NCBI RefSeq assembly: GCF_026802175.1
Contig: NZ_CP113797.1
Location: 1,899,026 to 1,963,025 of the forward strand
From: Thermocoleostomius sinensis A174
GTDB lineage: Bacteria; Cyanobacteriota; Cyanobacteriia; Elainellales; Elainellaceae
Direction of reading: 5' to 3'
DNA: 64,000 nucleotides
The notes under the pieces were generated by a model, which was not told the DNA's origin, did not search any database, and saw only the letters and a program-made list of their open reading frames with translations. Below are positions 6,391 to 54,593 of the stretch, piece after piece. The translations under genes were made by a program, and so were the position numbers. Numbering within the stretch: position 1 is the first letter of the stretch; each line of letters begins with the position of its first letter.

Positions 6391-7842
6391 TTAAACATGC
6401 GTGATTTCACGCCGTCGCTGTCTGCGATGTTGTTTGATGAGCAGATATCCCGCCACCAACCAAAACAGCAAGAGTCCGCCCGTGAGCAACAGCACTGGAA
6501 TAAGCCCAAATTGATTGACTAATGCCGGAGCCGCCGCCGTAAATAGTCCGCCTCCGACGATCGGCTCAAAGAAAAGCTGCTTGTAAGCAAAACTTTCAAA
6601 CGCGCCAGAGCGATTGTCAGGATCAACCATCCGCAACAGCAAAATCCCCGTGGCCGTTACGCCCATTGACTGACCCATATCGCCAATGCCCTTCTCAAAC
6701 CAGTAGTCGGGAAAAATCCGAGGCGCAAACCATAAGAAAATCAGCACATTCCAGAGAATGCCTAGCACGCTTAATGTCAAAAACGTGCCCAAGTTGCCAC
6801 CAATGACCGTCAGCGAGATTGATGCCAACGCCGTAATCACCACCACATCCAATGACACACCAGCAATACTTTTCATCAGGGGTTTGATGACCAATGGATG
6901 CAACCGCAAGCGCTCTAGGACGAGTTGCACAATGATGCCGCCGATCAGCGCCATGGGAAAAAGCGGCACAAACGACATAATTTCAAACCCAGTTTGTCCC
7001 CACGTTGCTGCCTCCAATAGCTTCAGTCCTTCTAAGATTAACCAACCGATAGCGACTGCCAGACCGACTAGCCCAAAGTTAATCGACAGCGGATCAATCA
7101 ACAGGTTGTGCATCAGCCGTGCTCGCCGCCGTTGAAATTCGGGAGGTTCGGGTTCGCTTTCAGTCAATTCAGGAAATTCACCCGGGTCTTCCACCGTTTG
7201 TGGCATCGATCGAATATATCCTTTGCGCCGGGCCCAATCGGCCAACGCCGTCCCGCAAACGATTCCAGACACAATACCCACTGTGGCCAGCCCCAACGCC
7301 AGATCCGGCCCATCGTCAAAGCCTAAGCTTCGCAAGGTATCGGCCATGCCCCCGGCTGTCCCGTGACCGCCTTCAAACCCAATTTCAATTAAGCAAGACG
7401 CGATCGGATTGGCTCCAAACAGCGGTATTAAAATCAGCAGTGTGGCTAAAATTCCAATCACGTATTGCCCCCAGGCTAAGGTTTGTCCAAAGACCACTTG
7501 AGGAGCCGCCTTGCGCCAGATTTCGCGAGGTCCGGGGATTGTTTCTCCGAGAAACAACGCAGCAAAGACAATATTGATAAAAATGCTGGGAGATTGCGAC
7601 CAAACCGTTCGCATGGCTTCGGGAAAGGTGCCTTGTGCCAAAGGAGCGTCAGGCCCAGCCAGTGCTGAGACAATCGCACCAAGCACTTGCGGTCCCAATA
7701 GCAGTGCCAGCACCCCAGCCACGATCGATTCTGGCAGATATAAGCGCTGAATCCAAGGAGATTTTTGTTTGATATAGCGACCCACCAACACCAAGATTGC
7801 GATGGTGATGAATGCAAAGAAAACGTCTCTTAAGTTAAACAC
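6391..7842 (-). CDS. GltS-like sodium:glutamate symporter family transporter
   Basis: A polytopic transporter resembling the Na+/glutamate symporter (GltS) family. The N-terminal hydrophobic half contains LPESIVAGVLALLLGP and the Gly-rich FEGGHGTAGGMADTL motif typical of the family's pore hairpin. The C-terminal half has MGVTATGILLLRMVDP, the matching motif. Between them is a cytoplasmic Glu/Pro-rich stretch (about residues 215-240 of the 483-residue form). An in-frame ATG exists at 7887. The GTG at 7842 is preferred because GAGGA lies five bases upstream and the protein then begins VFNLRDVFFAFITI. At 483 residues it is longer than E. coli GltS (about 400). The substrate is inferred from family only. 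Downstream is a hairpin terminator. Confidence 0.8.
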   Translation of the reverse strand: MFNLRDVFFAFITIAILVLVGRYIKQKSPWIQRLYLPESIVAGVLALLLGPQVLGAIVSALAGPDAPLAQGTFPEAMRTVWSQSPSIFINIVFAALFLGETIPGPREIWRKAAPQVVFGQTLAWGQYVIGILATLLILIPLFGANPIASCLIEIGFEGGHGTAGGMADTLRSLGFDDGPDLALGLATVGIVSGIVCGTALADWARRKGYIRSMPQTVEDPGEFPELTESEPEPPEFQRRRARLMHNLLIDPLSINFGLVGLAVAIGWLILEGLKLLEAATWGQTGFEIMSFVPLFPMALIGGIIVQLVLERLRLHPLVIKPLMKSIAGVSLDVVVITALASISLTVIGGNLGTFLTLSVLGILWNVLIFLWFAPRIFPDYWFEKGIGDMGQSMGVTATGILLLRMVDPDNRSGAFESFAYKQLFFEPIVGGGLFTAAAPALVNQFGLIPVLLLTGGLLLFWLVAGYLLIKQHRRQRRREITHV

Positions 7843-8444
7843 GGGAATCCTCGCATTGTAATGCAAAGTTGTAACGTACAACCGCACGATCAGGTTGCTT
7901 GGTGGCGATTGGGTGGTTGTACCGCTTCACGCCACCAAACTCGTTATCGCGTGCGGTAGCTACTACCAAGTTCTGGAATGGGAGTTTTAAGAGATGGTTT
8001 GAAATAGAATCAGTAGCTCAAACCACTATTTAGGAGGAACTCACTAAATAGAGAATAGAAATTAGAATCCTAAGCAGCGTTGCAAGTTGCTTCAAGCGTG
8101 AGGGCTTTTGATACTAAGCCGCCTGTAACTGACAGCTTTTTAGCCTTAATAAATCAAGCCGCCGCGTCTCTTGCCTACGCACCGTGCCTAGCACCTTAGT
8201 ATGGTGCACAGTTGCTATCGTGCGTAACGTTGGTATTCCTTTTTAAAGTCTATAACCGCAACTTATTTATTTTGCAGTAGCAATTATGACAGACTATGAA
8301 GTGCGGTTTATACCTTCCTCGCTGACCAAGCTGCTGTCGATGGGCAACTAGCATCATGGGCAATTGTTCTTAAGTGCTATGTAACCGCATTGGCTGCTGC
8401 AATTTGATTGACTGCTGCAATTTGCGTGTGCTTCCTTGCTCAGT
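7843..8444. other. gene-free gap upstream of the GltS-like gene
   Basis: About 600 bases with no convincing gene on either strand. It separates two minus-strand genes, so it should hold the promoter of the GltS-like gene and the 3' end of the ABC permease transcript. Small inverted repeats are present: CTATTTAG/CTAAATAG at 8026-8033 and 8044-8051 around GAGGAACTCA, and GTTGT-aacgt-ACAAC near 7869. None matches a regulator site I know. Confidence 0.4.
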
Positions 8445-9215
8445 TTAGTAGCCGCTCAATTTTCCTCGGCGCTTGGTTTCTCGTTCGGCTAGGCGAAACA
8501 GCAATAAGCCCACCCCTAAATAAAATGCGCCATTTAGAAAAGCGATCGTCAGCGTCACTGGATTCAACGCATTGCCGCGGGCCATGACATCGCGCAATAA
8601 GCCCACACTTGGCGTCATTGGCAGCAGATAGCCAACCAAGCGGGCTGAACCTGTCCAAGTCTCTACCGGAGCCGTGAATAAAAACAGCAGCGCAAACTGA
8701 AAAATGCTGAGTAATTGCTGAACCTGCTTCAGCAACAGTGCCAACGACCCCATTGCAAACGCAACACCGTAGGCGGCTGATAGCACCGCTAGTAAAGGAG
8801 GCAAAAGGGACGGTGGGAAGGCCAGTTGACTGCCGGTTAGCACCATAATGATCAGCAAAATGCTGAGATTCATGCCTAGGTTGAGAAGAAGGCTAGCAAT
8901 TGCTCGGGTAAGAAAGACTCGGGAGGCCCCATAGGGCGACAAAAAAAGCTGCTCGAGTGTGCCTGTTCGCGCCTCGTTTTGCAGCCCTCCGGCAATATCG
9001 CCCAAAATGAAAATCATGAGTGCCCACAGCACATAGCCAATAATGATGGCATCGAGGCGATCGCCAAACTGCACCTGTGGCCCAGCAATATACTGCACAC
9101 TGAGAAACAACCCGTAGAAAATCACAGTCGTGCCAATGATGCCACCAATTACCTCCGATAGATAGCGGAGCAATTGAATCCAACTGCGTTTGAGTTCTGC
9201 CAGAAAAAGGCTCAT
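8445..9215 (-). CDS. ABC-2 type transporter permease
   Basis: A 256-residue membrane component of an ABC exporter. About six hydrophobic segments are seen, with a C-terminal basic tail (RLAERETKRRGKLSG). The motif IAGGLQNEARTGTLEQLFLSP at the first cytoplasmic loop is typical of ABC-2 permeases. Its ATG overlaps the stop of the ATPase gene by four bases (ATGA), showing translational coupling and pairing. The family exports drugs, lipids, polysaccharides or peptides; nothing here identifies the cargo. The gene is the distal one of the pair, with a long gene-free stretch after it. Confidence 0.85.
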   Translation of the reverse strand: MSLFLAELKRSWIQLLRYLSEVIGGIIGTTVIFYGLFLSVQYIAGPQVQFGDRLDAIIIGYVLWALMIFILGDIAGGLQNEARTGTLEQLFLSPYGASRVFLTRAIASLLLNLGMNLSILLIIMVLTGSQLAFPPSLLPPLLAVLSAAYGVAFAMGSLALLLKQVQQLLSIFQFALLFLFTAPVETWTGSARLVGYLLPMTPSVGLLRDVMARGNALNPVTLTIAFLNGAFYLGVGLLLFRLAERETKRRGKLSGY

Positions 9216-44784: not shown

Positions 44785-46704
44785 GTGAAAATTCTATTAG
44801 TAGAAGACGACATACCAAGCGCATCAGTCCTATCAGAGGTAATCACAGCGCAGCACTATACTGTGGATGTAGCGTCAGATGGCGAAATGGGCTTGTACAT
44901 GGCAACATCTTGGGAATATGACCTCGTGTTGCTAGACTTACTGATTCCTAAGCTAGATGGCATTAGTCTTTGTCGGCAACTGCGCCATCATGGGTTTCAA
45001 AAGCCTATCTTATTGCTTACAGCTAAAGATTCCAGTAGTGATATCGTCAGAGGACTAGATGCGGGAGCCGATGATTATGTGACGAAGCCCTACGATTTAT
45101 CAGAGTTATTGGCTCGAATGCGGGCATTACTACGGCGAGGACAGGCTAGTTTGGCCCCAACCCTCCTAACATGGGAGCAGCTTTGCGTCAACCCTGTGTC
45201 GGCAGAAGTGACCTATCAAGAGCAAGTGCTTTCGCTGTCTCCTAAGGAATATGGTTTATTGGGGTTATTCCTCAGAAACCCACAGCGCATTTTTAGCCGC
45301 AGTGATATTATCGATCGCCTTTGGTCAATTGATGCGTCTCCCAGCGAAGGGGCCGTCACAAATTTAATTAAAGATTTGCGACAGAAATTAAAAGCGGCAG
45401 GCATGAAAACGGATCTGCTAGAAACCGTTTATGGATTGGGATATCGATTAAAGCCCCCCCCAACTCAATCTGCTACGTCAGCACACTCTAAACCGGGCGC
45501 TAAAGATAGTTCTAAATCGAAAGCCAGTACTGCATCGGCAACGGAACCTGTTGCAACCCAGAAACCAGCGCTTCAACCGAAAGACTTAACATCAATTTAT
45601 AAAGTCTTGGAGCGCTATCAACATACCTTTGCGGCCCGTGTGGTGACGCTGGAGGACATTCAACCCTGGCTGCAAGCTGGAACTTTAAGCCAACCCCAGC
45701 AACAAACAGCGGCCCAAGAAGCCCATCGCTTGGCGGGGGCGTTAGGCTCATTTGGCTATGAAGCAGGGTCACGCTTAGCCCGATCGATTGAGCAGTTGTT
45801 GATTCAGGATGCGCGCTTAGCCCCCGCGCAGATTGCTCAATTTACAGAACTTATCACTCAGCTAAAACACGAACTCGCCAAACCTCCCACCCCACTGGTC
45901 GATCGCCTGCCCAGTCCACCCGATGCATCGACCGTGCTCGTGGTAGATGCTGATACCACCTTCACTCACCCCCTTCAGCAAGCGGCGTTGGCGTGGGGAC
46001 TGCAAGTAGACGTAGCCACGAATTTCACAATTGCTAAGCAGAAGATGAGTGATGCATTGCCTGAGGCGGTGTTGCTGAGCCTCTCTGATTTGGCGCAAGA
46101 TGCTTCCCTCTTGCAAGAGCTAGCAGAGCAGTTTTCGACAGTGCCTGTCTTAGTTGTGACAGGAGAAGACCGTTTAACCGATCGGGTTGTGGTCTCTCGA
46201 TTTAGCATCAAGCGGTTTTTGCATAAACCCATTTCCCCAACCGAGGTATTAGAAGCAATTGTTCAAGTGCTGCCCCAGCCTCAAATGCCCGCCGCCAAGG
46301 TGATGATTTTAGATGATGATCCAATCATCCTAGAGGCACTGCGAGATTTGTTGCAACCGTGGGGACTGCACGTGACAACCCTACCTGATCCGCAACAGTT
46401 TTGGACAGTGCTGACTGCCACTCAGCCCGATCTGTTAGTGTTAGATTTGGAAATGCCAACCTTTAACGGAATTGATCTCTGCCGCGTGGTGCGACAAGAT
46501 CCAAAGTGGGGCAATTTACCAATTTTGGTGGTTACAGCACACACCCAGATGGAATCAATTCAACACGTATTTGCAGCCGGGGCTGATGATTTTATTGGCA
46601 AACCAGTCGTTGGACCAGAGTTGGTCACGCGCGTCATTAGCCGCATCGATCGCTCGCGCCTGCAACGAGAACTGGAAACCATGAAGCGGAGGGTGGGAAC
46701 ATGA
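44785..46704 (+). CDS. OmpR-type response regulator fused to Hpt and two further receiver domains
   Basis: A 639-residue multi-domain signalling protein. Order: receiver 1 (about 1-118; LVEDD, phospho-Asp in LVLLDLLIPKLDG, TKPYD); OmpR winged-helix (about 128-222; LSPKEYGLLGLFLRNPQRIFS); Ser/Ala/Lys linker; Hpt-like helical domain (about 265-360; His in AQEAHRLAGALGSFGYEAG); receiver 2 (about 378-490) in which the phospho-Asp position reads Ser (AVLLSLSDL); receiver 3 (about 505-625; MILDDDP, LLVLDLEMPTFNG, GKPVVG). The start is GTG at 44785, where family homology begins, rather than TTG at 44755. It overlaps the kinase gene by four bases (ATGA). It likely receives phosphate through its own Hpt and binds DNA. 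Confidence 0.9.
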   Translation: MKILLVEDDIPSASVLSEVITAQHYTVDVASDGEMGLYMATSWEYDLVLLDLLIPKLDGISLCRQLRHHGFQKPILLLTAKDSSSDIVRGLDAGADDYVTKPYDLSELLARMRALLRRGQASLAPTLLTWEQLCVNPVSAEVTYQEQVLSLSPKEYGLLGLFLRNPQRIFSRSDIIDRLWSIDASPSEGAVTNLIKDLRQKLKAAGMKTDLLETVYGLGYRLKPPPTQSATSAHSKPGAKDSSKSKASTASATEPVATQKPALQPKDLTSIYKVLERYQHTFAARVVTLEDIQPWLQAGTLSQPQQQTAAQEAHRLAGALGSFGYEAGSRLARSIEQLLIQDARLAPAQIAQFTELITQLKHELAKPPTPLVDRLPSPPDASTVLVVDADTTFTHPLQQAALAWGLQVDVATNFTIAKQKMSDALPEAVLLSLSDLAQDASLLQELAEQFSTVPVLVVTGEDRLTDRVVVSRFSIKRFLHKPISPTEVLEAIVQVLPQPQMPAAKVMILDDDPIILEALRDLLQPWGLHVTTLPDPQQFWTVLTATQPDLLVLDLEMPTFNGIDLCRVVRQDPKWGNLPILVVTAHTQMESIQHVFAAGADDFIGKPVVGPELVTRVISRIDRSRLQRELETMKRRVGT

Positions 46705-49700
46705 CGCTGCCATCACTCCGGCATTGGTATCGGCTGCGTTCAAAACCAAGTCATCGATCGCGCCCACAAATTCCACTCCGCCTTGCCCTGACCTTACCGT
46801 TTGTGCTGTTGACGGTCGGTACAACAGGATTAGTGGGATATTTGTCTTGGCGCAATGGACAACAGTCCATTCAAATTCTGGCCAGCCAGTTGATGAATGA
46901 AATCAGCGATCGAGTTTACCTCTATCTTGACAATTTTTTAGCCACTCCTCATCTTGTCAATCGGCTCAACGCTAATGCTGTGCGCCTGGGGCAAGTTGAT
47001 ATTACGAATCCAGAGAGCTTACAACGTCATTTTATCCAGCAACTTCAAACCTTCGATTCTGTCAGTCGCATTCATTTTAGTAATCCTCAAGGCGGTTATT
47101 TGGCAACTGGATTAGATGAACAAGGATTAACGGTTGCAACAACCGATCGCTTCCTGAAAGGAACTTTACGGGTATATGCCGTAGACAATCAAGGGAATCG
47201 TCAGGAACTGTTGGTAGAACAGCCCAGTTATGATGCTAGTCAACGTCCCTTTTATCGGGCAGCTATTCAGGGCAACCAACCTGTTTGGACATCTGTCTAT
47301 GTCTATGTGCCGACTTCCAGAGGGGCGGGGCTTTCAGCCAGTTATCCGCTATATGATGCAACTCAGCAGTTTCAGGGTGTCTTATCGACGGATCTGACCC
47401 TGAGCGCCATCCATCAATTTCTGAAAGGGCTACGGATTGGAACGGATGGCACGGTTTTCATTCTCGATCGGTCTGGGCTGATAATTGCCTCCGCCTTAGA
47501 CTCCCCATCTTCTACCCAAGCTTCCTATAATGAACCACGCAAGGCGAGCGATAGTCAGGAACCAGCAATTCGCTTAGCGGCGCAACAGATAGTGGACCAA
47601 TTGGTCCACTTCAGCCACATAAATTCGGCAACACAACTGCAATTCAACATCGCTGGAAAGCAGCAGTTTCTCCAGGTTACGCCATTTCAGGATGAGTTTG
47701 GGTTAGATTGGTTGATTGTGGTGACGGTTCCAGAAACCGCTTTCACCGGGCAGATCCAAGCCAACACTCGGATGACCCTGCTATTTAGTCTTGCTGCCCT
47801 GTTAGGCTCGATCGCGCTGGGGCTGTGGCTGAGTCGCTCGATTGCTCGCTCAATTCGGCGGTTGGGGCAATCAAGTGTGGCGCTGGCGGATGGAGCCTGG
47901 GATCGAGTGATTTCCCAAGATAGCACCATTGCTGAGTTGCAAGTGCTCAATACCTCGTTTGATCGCATGGCTGCTCAGCTTCAGCAGTCATTCAATCAAG
48001 TCAAAGAGGCGCTGCAAGACCATGAAACTCGGTTCCAGCAGTTGGCAACTGCCTCACCCGCAATCATTTATAGCGTTTTAGAAAATCCAGATGGGTCGGT
48101 TGAATACGAGTATCTCAGTGCCGCCTTTGAAGACATTTATGAAGTTGCAATCGCAGAGGTTCAGCAAGATACCACCATTCCCTTTTACCAAATTCATCCT
48201 GACGATCGAGCCACCTATCAACACGTCGCAAAGCACAGCGTAGAGACCATGCAGCCCTTTAAACATGAGTGGCGAATCATTACCCCCTCTGGCAAAATCA
48301 AATGGTTGCAAGCAAGTTCTCGACCAGAACGTCGCCAAGTGGGTGTTGTCTGGCATGGAGTTTGTTTAGATATTACCGATCGCAAACAAGCGGAGGAAGC
48401 CCTGCGCCAGAGCGAAGCACGCTGGCAGCGGATCGTATCTGCTGCTCCTGGGGCCATTTATACCTTTGTAAAGCGATTAGATCAGTCATTCTATTTTGAA
48501 TACATTAGCCCGGCGATCGAAGCAATCAACGAATTAACCGTCGAGCAGATGTTGCAAGAGCCGGCTCCGCTTTTGATTCATCCCGACGATCAAGCCAGCT
48601 ATGATGCGGCTGTGGCCCACAGTGCCGAAAGGCTGGAAGCTTTTTCCCATGAGTTTCGGATTATTACCCCTGCTGGCAAACTCAAGTGGCTCTATGCCAG
48701 TTCTCGTCCAGAACGACGGGAGAATGGTGAGATTGCCTGGTATGGCATTGTTTTGGATATCAGCGATTATAAACAAGCGGAGGAAGCCCTGCGCCAGAGC
48801 GAAGAACGTTGGCAATTAGCCATTTCTGGCAGCAATGATGGCATTTGGGATCATGACCTGCAAACCAACACCCATTACCTTTCTCCCCGATGTATGGACA
48901 TGTTGGGATATTCCTACGACGAAATTGATACCTTCGACAAGTGGGTGCAATACATTCATCCTGATGATCTGACCAGGTTGCAAGCCACATTTCAAGCTCA
49001 TGTCAATCACCAATTACCTAGTTATGCCTGTGAGTATCGCATGCGCTGTAAAGATGGTAGTTATAAGTGGCTCCTGGCACGGGGACAGGTACTTTGGGAT
49101 GAGCACGGAGTTGCAGTGCGGGCGGTGGGATCACTGACCGATATCACCGATCGCAAGCTGGCCGAAGCTGCCCTACGCCACAGTGAAGCCCGATTGCATA
49201 GTTTAACCTCGGCTGCCCCCGTTGCCATTTATTCATTAGTGCAGCATCACGATGGTTCCCTCGAGTTTGAATACATCAACCGAGTGGTAGAAGAATTTCA
49301 TGAAGTCAGCCTCGAGGAATTTACAGCAGATCCAAGCAGGATCATCATGGGACAAATGCACCCAGACGATCGCCAAGGCTATATTGACCTGTTCAACCGC
49401 AGTGCGGAAACGCTGGAACGGTTTCAGTATGAGTGGCGCATTCTTCCCCCTTCGGGTAAACTCAAGTGGCTACAAGCCCGATCGCAGCCGGAAAGACGAG
49501 AGAATGGCGATATTTATTGGCATGGGGTTGTGCTAGACATTACCGATCGCAAGTTAGCCGAAGCCGCTCTGCAACACAGTGAGGCTCGTTTCAAAAAAAT
49601 TGCAGCGGCCTCTCCAGCCCAAATATACATCTTCGCTTGCCAACCAGATGGTAGCCACAGGCGATTTAAGTATATCAGTCCCGGTATCCGTGAGATTCAA

Positions 49701-51779
49701 GAACTGGAACCTGAGCAAGTTCTAGACAATCCGAGGCTGACCTATGAACAAATTCATCCCGACGATCGCCAAGCTTACGACGAGGTTGCCAATCGAAGCA
49801 TTCAAGCGCTAAAACCCTTTTCTCATGAGTGGCGCATTGTTACTGCATCTGGCAAGCTCAAGTGGGTGCAAGCCAACTCCCGTCCCGAACAGCAACCCGA
49901 TGGGGAAATTATCTGGTATGGTGTCATGCTGGATATCACCGATCGCAAGCTGGCTGAAGCTGCCCTACGCCACAGTGAAGCCGCGTTGCGTCGGGCCCAA
50001 CAAGTTGCTCATGTTGGCAGTTGGGAAGTGGATGTGGCAACCGATCAAGTGACTTGGTCTGAAGAAAGCTTCCATATTTTTGGCTGGGATGTCACTCAAC
50101 CTGAACCCACCCTCTCGCGTTTTTACGATTTGATTCATCCCGACGATCGCCCATCCTTGCAACAAGCGGTCTCGCGAATCAGTACTCAGGGCGGAACCTA
50201 TAAAATTGAGTTTCGCGCACTTCAACCCGATGGTTCAATTCGCTATGTAGAAGCTAGAGGAGAAGGAATTAAAGACAAGAAAGGACACGTTGTGCGCCTG
50301 CTAGGAACCAATTTAGATATCACCGAGCGGCAGCAAGCCGAAGCGGCTCTACGACACAGCGAAGCAACTAAAAATCAAATCCTAAAAGCGATTCCAGATT
50401 TAATCATTTGGCTAACGGCTGACGGCACTTGCATTGATTTTATGGATGGCGGCAGCGTGACAAATCTTTATGTCAAATCAGACGCAATTGGTAGGAATGT
50501 AGCTGAGTTATTACCACCTCATTTAGCGCAATTACGAATGAATGCGATTCAACAAGTATTGCAAACGGGAGAGGTGCAAATCTATGAACAAGCGTTTATG
50601 ATTCAAGATACCATTCGCCACGAAGAAGTGCGCGTGATTGGTGTGGGAGATGACAGGATTCTAGTAATTGTACGAGACATTACCGATCGCAAACAGGCAG
50701 AAGCCGCCCTGCTTGATAGCGAAACCCGATTCCGTAGTGCCTTTTGGAATGCCCCCATCGGTATGGCATTGATTGGACTGGACAATCGCTGGATTAAGAT
50801 AAACCCCGTGTTGTGTCAGATGCTTGGCTATACCGAGCCGGAGCTACTGTCGATGCAGGCGTCTGCGCTGGTGCATCCGGATGATCTGAATCAGCTTCAA
50901 GATAGTCTGTTGCAACTTGGATCTGACACAAAGCCAAATGCACAAATTGAATTGCGCTATCACTGCTGCAATGGACAGATGATTTGGGGGTTGGTCAATC
51001 TCTCTGTGGTGCGAGATGCCCAAGGTCAACCGTTATATTATGTGGCGCAAATTCAAGACATCACCGAGCGACAAGCCATCGATCGCATCAAAAATGAATT
51101 TATTTCGATCGTCAGCCATGAACTGCGCACCCCTCTGACCGCCATTCGAGGATTTTTGGGACTGCTGGATACAGGAATTTACGACAACAAGCCCGACAAA
51201 GCCAAACACATGATTACCCAAGCGCTCACCAACAGCGATCGGCTGGTGCGATTGGTGAATGACATTCTCGACTTGGAGCGGCTATCGTCTGGCAGAGTGC
51301 AACTCGTGATGGAAGCGTGTCTGGCAGAAACCCTGTTGCAGCAAGCTGTGGCGGGTGTCCAGTCGATCGCCGATCAAGCCCACATTACCTTGGTTGTGGG
51401 CAGCACAACCGCCACCGTATGGGCCGCTCCCGACTCCATTATTCAAACCTTGACCAATTTACTGGGCAATGCCATCAAGTTCTCTCCAGATCATTCGGTG
51501 ATTACCCTAGCAGCCCAAGCCCAAGCAGACTCGGTACTCTTCTCTGTGACAGATCAAGGACGAGGCATTCCACCTGATAAATTAGAAACGATTTTTGGAC
51601 GGTTTCAGCAAGTCGATGTCTCAGACTCTCGACAAAAAGGTGGCACGGGGTTGGGGTTGGCCATTTGTCAAAGTATTATCCAGCAACACGGAGGTAACAT
51701 TTGGGCAGAAAGCACTTTGGGAGTGGGCAGTACCTTCTATTTCACGTTACCGTTCCCCCCTGGAGGTCTGCATGAATAG
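46701..51779 (+). CDS. large membrane sensor histidine kinase with eight PAS domains
   Basis: A 1692-residue kinase. TM1 (about 27-49), a periplasmic Cache-like sensor (about 50-350), TM2 (about 357-378), HAMP (about 378-432), then eight PAS/PAC units from about 440 to 1455. Seven carry the (I/M/V)HPDD signature; the seventh unit is divergent. Units 1, 2, 4 and 5 share HEWRI.T.SGK.KW-type text and look like recent tandem copies. HisKA has the phospho-His in IVSHELRTPLTAIRG (about 1473). The HATPase has NAIKFSPDHS, DQGRGIPPDKL and GTGLGLAICQSII. GGAGGG lies seven bases before the ATG. It overlaps the preceding regulator by four bases and the next receiver by eight. The periplasmic ligand is unknown. 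Confidence 0.93.
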   Translation: MTLPSLRHWYRLRSKPSHRSRPQIPLRLALTLPFVLLTVGTTGLVGYLSWRNGQQSIQILASQLMNEISDRVYLYLDNFLATPHLVNRLNANAVRLGQVDITNPESLQRHFIQQLQTFDSVSRIHFSNPQGGYLATGLDEQGLTVATTDRFLKGTLRVYAVDNQGNRQELLVEQPSYDASQRPFYRAAIQGNQPVWTSVYVYVPTSRGAGLSASYPLYDATQQFQGVLSTDLTLSAIHQFLKGLRIGTDGTVFILDRSGLIIASALDSPSSTQASYNEPRKASDSQEPAIRLAAQQIVDQLVHFSHINSATQLQFNIAGKQQFLQVTPFQDEFGLDWLIVVTVPETAFTGQIQANTRMTLLFSLAALLGSIALGLWLSRSIARSIRRLGQSSVALADGAWDRVISQDSTIAELQVLNTSFDRMAAQLQQSFNQVKEALQDHETRFQQLATASPAIIYSVLENPDGSVEYEYLSAAFEDIYEVAIAEVQQDTTIPFYQIHPDDRATYQHVAKHSVETMQPFKHEWRIITPSGKIKWLQASSRPERRQVGVVWHGVCLDITDRKQAEEALRQSEARWQRIVSAAPGAIYTFVKRLDQSFYFEYISPAIEAINELTVEQMLQEPAPLLIHPDDQASYDAAVAHSAERLEAFSHEFRIITPAGKLKWLYASSRPERRENGEIAWYGIVLDISDYKQAEEALRQSEERWQLAISGSNDGIWDHDLQTNTHYLSPRCMDMLGYSYDEIDTFDKWVQYIHPDDLTRLQATFQAHVNHQLPSYACEYRMRCKDGSYKWLLARGQVLWDEHGVAVRAVGSLTDITDRKLAEAALRHSEARLHSLTSAAPVAIYSLVQHHDGSLEFEYINRVVEEFHEVSLEEFTADPSRIIMGQMHPDDRQGYIDLFNRSAETLERFQYEWRILPPSGKLKWLQARSQPERRENGDIYWHGVVLDITDRKLAEAALQHSEARFKKIAAASPAQIYIFACQPDGSHRRFKYISPGIREIQELEPEQVLDNPRLTYEQIHPDDRQAYDEVANRSIQALKPFSHEWRIVTASGKLKWVQANSRPEQQPDGEIIWYGVMLDITDRKLAEAALRHSEAALRRAQQVAHVGSWEVDVATDQVTWSEESFHIFGWDVTQPEPTLSRFYDLIHPDDRPSLQQAVSRISTQGGTYKIEFRALQPDGSIRYVEARGEGIKDKKGHVVRLLGTNLDITERQQAEAALRHSEATKNQILKAIPDLIIWLTADGTCIDFMDGGSVTNLYVKSDAIGRNVAELLPPHLAQLRMNAIQQVLQTGEVQIYEQAFMIQDTIRHEEVRVIGVGDDRILVIVRDITDRKQAEAALLDSETRFRSAFWNAPIGMALIGLDNRWIKINPVLCQMLGYTEPELLSMQASALVHPDDLNQLQDSLLQLGSDTKPNAQIELRYHCCNGQMIWGLVNLSVVRDAQGQPLYYVAQIQDITERQAIDRIKNEFISIVSHELRTPLTAIRGFLGLLDTGIYDNKPDKAKHMITQALTNSDRLVRLVNDILDLERLSSGRVQLVMEACLAETLLQQAVAGVQSIADQAHITLVVGSTTATVWAAPDSIIQTLTNLLGNAIKFSPDHSVITLAAQAQADSVLFSVTDQGRGIPPDKLETIFGRFQQVDVSDSRQKGGTGLGLAICQSIIQQHGGNIWAESTLGVGSTFYFTLPFPPGGLHE
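51093..51266 (+). repeat. 174-bp block identical to 53913-54086 (copy 1)
   Basis: This part of the first kinase's HisKA region is base-for-base identical to 53913-54086 in the second kinase, while sequence on both sides differs at many synonymous positions. A further 34 bases (51036-51069) are identical to 53856-53889. Constant offset 2820. Confidence 0.95.
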
Positions 51780-52146
51780 ACATATTCTTGTCGTCGATGA
51801 TGAGGCATCTCTACGTGATCTGGCTTGTACCTGTTTGGAAGATTTGGGCGGCTGGAATACTACAGCGGCCGCATCAGGACAGGAAGCCTTGGCAAAAGCG
51901 GAGTCCATCCCTCTAGATGCTATTCTTCTCGATGTTTCGATGCCCGAAATGGATGGGTTTCAGTGCTATGAACAGCTTAAAGCCAATCCCACCACTCAGT
52001 CTATTCCGGTGGTGCTGCTGACGGCAAAAGTCTTGCCAGACGATCGCACTCGATTTGCCCAAATGGAAATTGCAGGGGTGATCACAAAACCCTTTGATCC
52101 CGTTTCGATTTGTGATCAACTTTCTGAACTGCTGCACTGGACTTGA
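51772..52146 (+). CDS. CheY-like single-domain response regulator
   Basis: A 124-residue stand-alone receiver. Acidic pocket VVDDE (residues 8-12), phospho-Asp in AILLDVSMPEMDGF, Thr in VLLTAKVLPDD and Lys in ITKPFDP are all present. It starts with ATG at 51772 inside the end of the kinase gene (8-base overlap), with GGAGG five bases upstream. It has no output domain, so it is likely a phosphate shuttle between the two kinases and the Hpt-bearing regulator, or a target binding another protein. Its stop overlaps the TTG start used for the second kinase. Confidence 0.93.
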   Translation: MNRHILVVDDEASLRDLACTCLEDLGGWNTTAAASGQEALAKAESIPLDAILLDVSMPEMDGFQCYEQLKANPTTQSIPVVLLTAKVLPDDRTRFAQMEIAGVITKPFDPVSICDQLSELLHWT

Positions 52147-54593
52147 GCACAGATGTTAGTAAAACAAAGACTTCCCTGATGGTTGCTCCTCTTTTACACT
52201 GGCTTTACTTCCCCAAGCGATCGGCTAAGACACCATCGCAGCGTACAACAGTTCCGTTACATTTGGTTTTAATCGTACCATTTGTCTTGCTATCAACCGG
52301 GGCTGTTGGAATTGTAGGATACCTGTCTTGGCGCAGTGGGCAGCGAGCAATTAGTGATGTGGTTGAACAACTGCAAGCCAAAATTGGTGACCACATTGAA
52401 GAAAAACTGACGGTTTATTTAGAGACGCCGCACTTAATTAATCGAATCAATGCCGATGCCGTGCAACGGGGAGAACTCAATGTTACAAGTCGAACCAGTG
52501 AGCGCTATCTTTGGCAACAAATTCAACGATTTGAGTCAGTCAGTTGGATTTACTATGGCTCCGAGCAAGAAGGAAGTTTCGTGGGTATCACGCGAGCGAA
52601 TCCCGATCGATCGCTGCAAATTGTAGTCAATGATGCCACAACGAACTTTGAAGGCCACTATTACACGGTTGATTCACAAGGTAATCGGCAGCAGCGGGTG
52701 CAGGTCATTTCCTCAATCTATGACGCCCGCAGTCGTCCCTGGTATCAAACGGCGGTGCAAAAAAGACAGGCCAGTTGGAGCGAAATTTATCAAACCTTTG
52801 AGCTACCAAGTTTGATTATTAGCGCAGCATTACCTCTATACAACACCTCTGGCGATGTGCTTGGAGTGGTAGGAGCCGATCTGGATTTAGAAGATATTAG
52901 TCACTTTCTTGCCAGTCTAGAGATCAGCCCATCAGGTCAAGCATTCATTGTGGAACGATCGGGGCAGTTGGTAGCCAGTTCTGCTTCTGAAACTCCTTAT
53001 CGTTTTAATGAACGGCTGCGACAACCACAGCGGTTGCTTGCCATTGAAAGCACTGATCGATTAATTCAATCGGCGGCTCGGCACTTGAATCAGCAGTTTG
53101 GTAGCCTTGACAGCATTCTTGGTGAACAGCAGTTGGATTTTTACCTATCCGGTCAGCGCCAATTCTTACGAGTTTTACCCTTCCGCGATCGACGCGGCAT
53201 TGATTGGTTAATTGTCGTTGTTGTGCCCGAGTCGGATTTTATTGCCCAAATTTACGCCCAACGTCGCACAACCATTGTGCTTTGCACGCTAGCCTTGCTG
53301 GGAACAATCGCACTGGGGCTGTGGATGTCTCGGTGGATTTCCTATCCCATTCAACAGTTGAGTCAAGCTAGCGGATTGTTAGCTCAGGGAGATTGGCACG
53401 AACCGCTAAACGAAGATAGCCCCATCACAGAACTACAAGTATTGACGCATTCCTTTAATTACACCGCTACTCAACTCCAGCAATCGTTCTGTCGAGTGCG
53501 CACGGCGCTGGAAGAGTCGCAAGAGAAATTTACTGACAGTGAAGCCCGCTTTCGTCATGCCTTTCATGATGCTCCTATTGGTATGGCGTTGATTGGATTA
53601 GACGATCGCTGGCTACAAGTGAATCCGATGCTGTGCGATATGCTCGGCTATCCTGAAACTGAACTATTGACGATGACAGCCTCAACTTTGGTACATCCAG
53701 ATGATCTCAGCAAGCTAAACCACAATATCCAGCAACTCTCCCAGTCAGACGATCGCAATGCTCAAGTGGAGTTGCGCTACTGTTGTCAAGACGGCCGGGT
53801 GGCGTGGGGACGGCTCAGCCTCTCGTTAGTGCGTGATGTTGAAGATTGCCCCTGCTATTATGTGGCGCAAATTCAAGACATCACCGAGCAACATGCCATC
53901 GATCGGATGAAGAATGAATTTATTTCGATCGTCAGCCATGAACTGCGCACCCCTCTGACCGCCATTCGAGGATTTTTGGGACTGCTGGATACAGGAATTT
54001 ACGACAACAAGCCCGACAAAGCCAAACACATGATTACCCAAGCGCTCACCAACAGCGATCGGCTGGTGCGATTGGTGAATGACATTTTGGAGTTGGAACG
54101 ACAATCATCGGGGCGGGTGCAGTGGGTGATGGAAGTGTGCCAGGCCGCAACGCTAATCAACCAAGCCATCGCTGGGATGCAATCGATCGCCGATGAAGCC
54201 TTAATTAACCTAGTTGTGTCCTCTGCAACTGGCTCGGTCTGGGCGGCTCCAGATGCCATGATTCAAACGCTGACCAATTTGCTAAGCAACGCCATCAAAT
54301 TTTCTCCACCCCATTCGATCATCACCCTGTCGGCACAACCACACCTCAATCACGTTTTGTTTCAAGTCAAAGATCAAGGACGGGGCATTCCAGACGATAA
54401 ACTGGAAATGATTTTTGAGCGCTTTCAGCAAGTGGATGTATCTGATGCTCGGCAAAAGGGCGGTACGGGGTTAGGACTGGCCATTTGTCAAAGCATTATC
54501 CATCAACATGGCGGAAAAATTTGGGTAGAGAGCCACATAGGGGTAGGCAGTACTTTCTACTTCACGATTCCGTCATCTCCCTCCTCCTTATGA
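52143..54593 (+). CDS. membrane sensor histidine kinase with one PAS domain
   Basis: An 816-residue kinase built like a shortened version of the first. TM1 (about 38-60), a periplasmic Cache-like domain, TM2 (about 376-396), HAMP, one PAS (about 464-588) closest to PAS unit 8 of the large kinase, HisKA with phospho-His about 599 (IVSHELRTPLTAIRG) and HATPase with NAIKFSPPHS and GTGLGLAICQ. The TTG at 52143 overlaps the previous stop (TTGA), typical of coupling; an ATG at 52179 is an alternative. No good ribosome site is seen for either. The two kinases share the extracytoplasmic plan (YLSWR.GQ) and clearly arose by duplication. Confidence 0.92.
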   Translation: MSTDVSKTKTSLMVAPLLHWLYFPKRSAKTPSQRTTVPLHLVLIVPFVLLSTGAVGIVGYLSWRSGQRAISDVVEQLQAKIGDHIEEKLTVYLETPHLINRINADAVQRGELNVTSRTSERYLWQQIQRFESVSWIYYGSEQEGSFVGITRANPDRSLQIVVNDATTNFEGHYYTVDSQGNRQQRVQVISSIYDARSRPWYQTAVQKRQASWSEIYQTFELPSLIISAALPLYNTSGDVLGVVGADLDLEDISHFLASLEISPSGQAFIVERSGQLVASSASETPYRFNERLRQPQRLLAIESTDRLIQSAARHLNQQFGSLDSILGEQQLDFYLSGQRQFLRVLPFRDRRGIDWLIVVVVPESDFIAQIYAQRRTTIVLCTLALLGTIALGLWMSRWISYPIQQLSQASGLLAQGDWHEPLNEDSPITELQVLTHSFNYTATQLQQSFCRVRTALEESQEKFTDSEARFRHAFHDAPIGMALIGLDDRWLQVNPMLCDMLGYPETELLTMTASTLVHPDDLSKLNHNIQQLSQSDDRNAQVELRYCCQDGRVAWGRLSLSLVRDVEDCPCYYVAQIQDITEQHAIDRMKNEFISIVSHELRTPLTAIRGFLGLLDTGIYDNKPDKAKHMITQALTNSDRLVRLVNDILELERQSSGRVQWVMEVCQAATLINQAIAGMQSIADEALINLVVSSATGSVWAAPDAMIQTLTNLLSNAIKFSPPHSIITLSAQPHLNHVLFQVKDQGRGIPDDKLEMIFERFQQVDVSDARQKGGTGLGLAICQSIIHQHGGKIWVESHIGVGSTFYFTIPSSPSSL
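53913..54086 (+). repeat. 174-bp block identical to 51093-51266 (copy 2)
   Basis: Second copy of the identical HisKA-coding block. The divergence resumes abruptly at 54087 (GACATTTTGGAG here, GACATTCTCGAC in copy 1). Confidence 0.95.

Follow-up and report, generated by a model that had tools for sequence, protein, structure and literature searches.

The cyanobacterial regulator RcaC carries an internal Hpt domain. It belongs to the RcaE-RcaF-RcaC system of complementary chromatic acclimation in Fremyella diplosiphon, which combines a stand-alone CheY-like receiver with a multi-receiver OmpR-type regulator (PMC4390838, PMC8256508). RcaC has been described with three CheY-like domains (PMC4390838), and a title cited in PMC5784247 terms the relay a four-step phosphorelay. 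In far-red photoacclimation, the RfpA-RfpB-RfpC set comprises a kinase, a CheY-like receiver and an RcaC-like regulator that are kept together (PMC4390838). The cassette described here shares with RcaE-RcaF-RcaC the stand-alone CheY-like receiver and an OmpR-type regulator with several receivers, but RcaE is a light sensor kinase whereas this cassette has two periplasmic dCache kinases. With RfpA-RfpB-RfpC it shares the adjoining kinase, CheY-like receiver and RcaC-like regulator; unlike our cassette, that set has one kinase with another type of sensor and sits in a photosynthesis gene cluster. Several different sensor kinases converge on one relay in the Bacillus Kin-Spo0F-Spo0B-Spo0A and Vibrio LuxN/LuxQ-LuxU-LuxO systems. 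There, the kinases are scattered in the genome, whereas here they lie in one block.

The window that we analyzed is the whole stretch of 64,000 nucleotides from Thermocoleostomius sinensis A174, whose 5.81 Mb genome is assembled in one contig. Four plus strand genes lie at 44785-54593, with successive overlaps of 4, 8 and 4 bases. The first, at 44785..46704 (+), encodes a 639 amino acid response regulator; its GTG start is kept in orthologues, which supports the start at 44785. It is followed by k1 at 46701..51779 (+), a sensor kinase of 1692 amino acids with the order dCache_1-HAMP-PASx8-HisKA-HATPase and without a C-terminal receiver (Pfam, TIGR00229), then by a stand-alone CheY/RcaF-like receiver of 124 amino acids at 51772..52146 (+) (Pfam Response_reg), and then by k2 at 52143..54593 (+), a dCache_1-HAMP-PAS-HisKA-HATPase sensor kinase (Pfam) of 816 amino acids from a TTG start. 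The regulator and k1 overlap by 4 bp (ATGA, 46701-46704) with a GGAGG upstream, and k1 and the receiver overlap by 8 bp (51772-51779) with a GGAGG preceding the receiver ATG. The overlap of 4 bp between the receiver and k2 (TTGA, 52143-52146) is the least certain of the three because it needs translation of k2 from the TTG at 52143. A second in-frame start for k2, an ATG, lies 36 bases further, at 52179, which is 33 bp beyond the receiver stop; from this start k2 has 804 amino acids and the overlap is absent. Upstream of 44785, no promoter, terminator or operator rose above shuffled sequences, and a lone short direct repeat was found. The four genes may be read as a single transcript.

This layout agrees with the first-pass annotation, which had read from the letters four same-strand genes overlapping by 4, 8 and 4 bases: all the reading frames were found where it had placed them and the overlaps can be read directly from the sequence. 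Its description of an 8-PAS kinase, a CheY-like receiver and a 1-PAS kinase is matched by Pfam, with TIGR00229 counting eight PAS domains in k1, and the periplasmic Cache-like sensors that it assigned to both kinases are found by Pfam as dCache_1 followed by HAMP. The two extra receivers that it gave to the regulator are present as well, yet one of them lacks the phospho-acceptor Asp.

The regulator has the order REC-wHTH-Hpt-pseudoREC-REC (in Pfam, three Response_reg, Trans_reg_C and Hpt). REC1 spans residues 1-119 with the acceptor Asp51, the OmpR-type wHTH residues 128-222, a linker of low confidence residues 227-269, and the Hpt domain residues 268-365 with His314; then come the pseudo-receiver REC2 (residues 382-495), in which Ser432 replaces the Asp, and REC3 (residues 505-638) with Asp554. 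The Hpt domain scores 36.7 bits, against a Pfam cut-off of 24.6. In an alignment of 48 rows, in which the window protein occurs twice, the REC1 Asp51 is kept in 46, the Hpt His in all 48 and the REC3 Asp in 45. At the REC2 Asp position, the nearest clade (n=6, window protein included) has Ser in five proteins and His in one. The AF2 model of the regulator matches the Pfam borders and places His314 within a helix (303-322); given its low pTM of 0.29, we used the model for domain borders and not for domain arrangement. In the stand-alone receiver the acceptor Asp lies in the motif ILLDVSMP, and the acidic pair and the Lys are present. On paper, one relay path thus appears intact, as Asp51, His314, Asp554 and the acceptor of the stand-alone receiver are all there. 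With an Asp-bearing N-terminal receiver joined to an OmpR-type wHTH, an internal Hpt with its His, and C-terminal receivers, the regulator is, by its domain content, of the RcaC/RfpB type, and the neighbouring kinase and stand-alone CheY-like receiver are those of an Rca/Rfp cassette. A GAF or PHY light-sensing domain was absent from both k1 and k2 in Pfam, and both inputs are dCache_1-HAMP.

The best PDB sequence matches of the k2 sensor are PctA and PctB, and its AF2 model matches the dCache folds of PctA, PctC, Mlp24 and PscC with Z scores of 19-21. Amino-acid-binding dCache_1AA domains share the motif Y121 R126 W128 Y129 Y144 D173 in PctA numbering, and dCache_1 domains bind other ligands too (PMC10104139). 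In k2 all six motif residues are found (Y193 R198 W200 Y201 Y216 D246; codons at 52719..52880, +), and in k1 five of the six (Y177 R182 F184 Y185 Y200 D231; codons at 47229..47393, +), with F184 in place of W. The complete motif is also seen in the nearest orthologous kinases L064, L065, L066 and L068 and is missing in L070, L072 and L084, so its presence is informative. In fold and in all six ligand motif residues k2 is thus like PctA, PctB and PctC; those proteins are chemoreceptors, whereas k2 and k1, the latter with F for W, are histidine kinases. Our best guess is that the ligands of k1 and k2 are amino acids or near relatives, with other dCache ligands being possible. Among the k1 orthologues (L064-L068 and L070) the number of PAS domains ranges from 5 to 11, and divergence is much faster in their dCache sensors than in the accompanying regulators.

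RcaC-like regulators are widespread among the relatives of this organism. At least one was found in 31 of the 36 genomes of the same family (E <= 1e-100), the order-level search giving the identical 36 genomes. Phylum-wide, at E <= 1e-130, at least 21 of 156 genomes have one, a minimum because the number of candidates scored was small. A scan of genome contigs with the single regulator protein gave no match; an alignment-based contig scan gave about six cyanobacterial matches, the remainder being mostly ordinary OmpR regulators. The full-length matches that carry names are all cyanobacterial, including Nostoc, Richelia, Pleurocapsa and an Oscillatoriales MAG. The same genome encodes five more RcaC-like regulators that have an Hpt and one or more C-terminal receivers, and a broken one besides. 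Among 73 RcaC-like loci, which were picked as best matches and not randomly, a kinase comes next on the same strand in 39 (overlapping in 14 of these), a stand-alone receiver continues the run in about 30, and the kinase is fused in six. Orthologous loci shared no recognised neighbour genes, the neighbours being annotated for two-component domains. The block is co-directional and holds all relay steps, as the first-pass annotation had said and as the four genes and their domains confirm; its view that having these steps together is special does not hold, since the order regulator, kinase, receiver is common and the relay is of the RcaE-RcaF-RcaC/RfpA-C-B type. We therefore rejected a novel four-gene arrangement, the first three genes being a common cassette. 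The first three genes recur in about 30 of the 73 loci, and a second kinase within the same run is seen only in the present cassette and in L080. L069 was flagged as a third two-kinase locus and rejected as a split kinase fragment.

The sensors of partner kinases elsewhere are diverse and include GAF-PHY (L029, L101), ETR1_N (L083), CHASE3 (L033, L103) and PAS domains. In a tree in which the GAF-PHY-linked (Rfp-like) cassettes stand in for RcaC and RfpB sequences, the window regulator groups with regulators adjoining dCache kinases. A second dCache RcaC-type cassette (L034, G000:C1 about 1969700-1976100) lies in the same genome about 31 kb downstream; its kinase has six PAS domains, its receiver overlaps by 8 bp, and its regulator, split by a frameshift within the wHTH, stops behind the Hpt and so has neither REC2 nor REC3. 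Also in this genome, L029 (G000:C1 about 5052600-5057500) is an Rfp-like set of an RcaC-like regulator, a GAF-PHY-PAS kinase and a stand-alone receiver, and its kinase is without PAS_2, as in knotless phytochromes. In L083 a kinase of the ETR1_N (ethylene-receptor) type, at 6650-8659, lies between the RcaC-like regulator and the stand-alone receiver, and in L073, L077, L239 and L245 the RcaC-like regulator and a PAS histidine kinase form a single polypeptide.

The DHp hairpin of histidine kinases bears the phospho-His together with the residues that determine which receiver is the partner. In k1 and k2 it is identical across 59 residues, and the likeness extends to the DNA. A tract at 51036..51266 (+) in k1, covering the end of the last PAS domain, the linker and the whole DHp hairpin, recurs in k2 at 53856..54086 (+) as 231 bp with five mismatches. 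All five fall in the first part of the tract, and its final 174 bp (53913-54086 in k2) are identical in the two genes. The borders are sharp, with a base identity of about 66% in the flanks. At third codon positions k1 and k2 are 98% identical in the DHp versus 47% in the adjoining PAS and CA parts, and either kinase compared with close orthologues in other genomes gives 41-58% in the DHp. In 20,000 codon shuffles the longest identical run was 52, far short of 174 bp. The next-longest identical run among all aligned kinase pairs, of 64 bp, occurs in two paralogous cassettes which resemble each other along their whole length. A search of the genome showed that k1 and k2 hold the sole two close copies, and a mobile or repeat sequence was rejected on this count. 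A DHp identical at the DNA level is not known from the Bacillus Spo0 or Vibrio Lux relays. A literature search on gene conversion of histidine kinase DHp regions gave nothing on the subject, and a broader one a passing mention for myxobacteria.

The first-pass annotation had taken the input as duplicated, and k2 could have arisen as a simple tandem copy of k1 with loss of seven PAS domains: the two are 57% identical in the PAS and 74% in the CA domain, and the CA-domain tree unites them with cassette kinases in a single clade (96/87). We consider this quite improbable, as the k2 sensor shares 52% identity with a dCache protein from a different genome and only about 41% with the k1 sensor, and the sensor tree joins k1 to L067 (100/100) but places k2 among dCache proteins that are not part of RcaC cassettes (96/98); for the sensor, a whole-length tandem duplication was therefore rejected. 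A different sensor lineage together with a shared CA clade points to a sensor of foreign ancestry joined to a cassette-type catalytic module and, judged from these trees, k2 is a mosaic. The simple reading of the tract is a recent gene conversion between k1 and k2; of the two directions, k1 to k2 is the likelier, as orthologous loci have k1 as their resident kinase. An assembly or sequencing artefact is very improbable. The frameshift in the L034 regulator could hint at local sequence errors, but the genome is in one contig, the borders are sharp, the five mismatches lie in the first part of the tract and a 231-bp repeat should be short for current reads. One tentative explanation, to which we give not quite even odds, is that conversion limited to the DHp keeps two kinases of unlike sensor ancestry on one relay, a foreign sensor having been plugged in. 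Another hypothesis, somewhat doubtful but a serious contender, is that the tract arose without any selected wiring. Conversion requires local identity and the DHp is the best conserved part of these kinases (90-97% amino acid identity to close orthologues), so a chance recombination between neighbours would start there, with k2 already acting on the same receiver. Yet the outcome, two kinases with one DHp, would be unchanged, and k2 retains an open frame, its full set of kinase motifs and every residue of the ligand motif.

The reading that we prefer for the cassette as a whole, with a probability of roughly 0.55, is an RcaC-type relay in which two periplasmic amino-acid-type sensor kinases converge, via one DHp, on the stand-alone receiver; its ligand class, wiring and target genes are all putative. 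In such a relay the different dCache_1 domains of k1 and k2 would each recognise a small molecule, most likely an amino acid or something closely related, and each kinase would autophosphorylate its own DHp histidine. Because the hairpins are identical, both kinases would phosphorylate the same partner, most likely the receiver encoded between them, which would pass the phosphate to His314 of the Hpt and from there to Asp51 of REC1, controlling the OmpR-type DNA-binding domain. REC3, with its intact Asp554, may be an alternative entry point or a phosphate sink, and REC2 a non-phosphorylated pseudo-receiver. In 44 complete cassettes the DHp distances, corrected for the wHTH, follow the stand-alone receiver with a partial r of 0.38, REC1 with 0.32, the Hpt with 0.29 and REC3 with 0.26, and the stand-alone receiver follows REC1 (0.47) and the Hpt follows REC3 (0.39); these values are close together and partly reflect shared history. 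The pattern fits a path from DHp to receiver, Hpt and REC1, as the stand-alone receiver and REC1 face the same Hpt, and it would also allow direct transfer from the DHp to REC1 or REC3. A branched relay, with the kinases acting directly on REC1 (or REC3), the stand-alone receiver draining phosphate or forming an output of its own and the Hpt serving mainly back-transfer, would agree with the covariation of the DHp with REC1 and of the Hpt with REC3, with some RcaC-like loci that lack a stand-alone receiver or a neighbouring kinase, and with the L034 regulator ending before REC2. We regard it as unlikely, since a stand-alone receiver is what most often follows the kinase and covaries best with the DHp, and in the studied relative RcaE acts on RcaC through RcaF (PMC8256508). 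Of the path suggested by the first-pass annotation, the route from kinase to receiver, Hpt and OmpR receiver is thus the best supported, while the C-terminal receiver that it offered as another first step is found on neither kinase.

The relay itself is ordinary and well precedented in its parts; what is new here is the presence of two unlike dCache sensors on one cassette, together with the unexpected DHp conversion tract. Sequence covariation is the usual basis for arguing how a signalling pathway gains a new input and still stays specific, and this cassette is a natural test case, with two kinases in one gene block, different sensors, an identical phosphotransfer hairpin and a complete relay alongside. 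If conversion does keep both kinases on one relay, the part that determines specificity would evolve in concert while the sensors stay different. Our data also suggest that RcaC-type relays, which are known for light colour, are a general switch whose sensors can be exchanged; in this cassette they would probably respond to amino acids.
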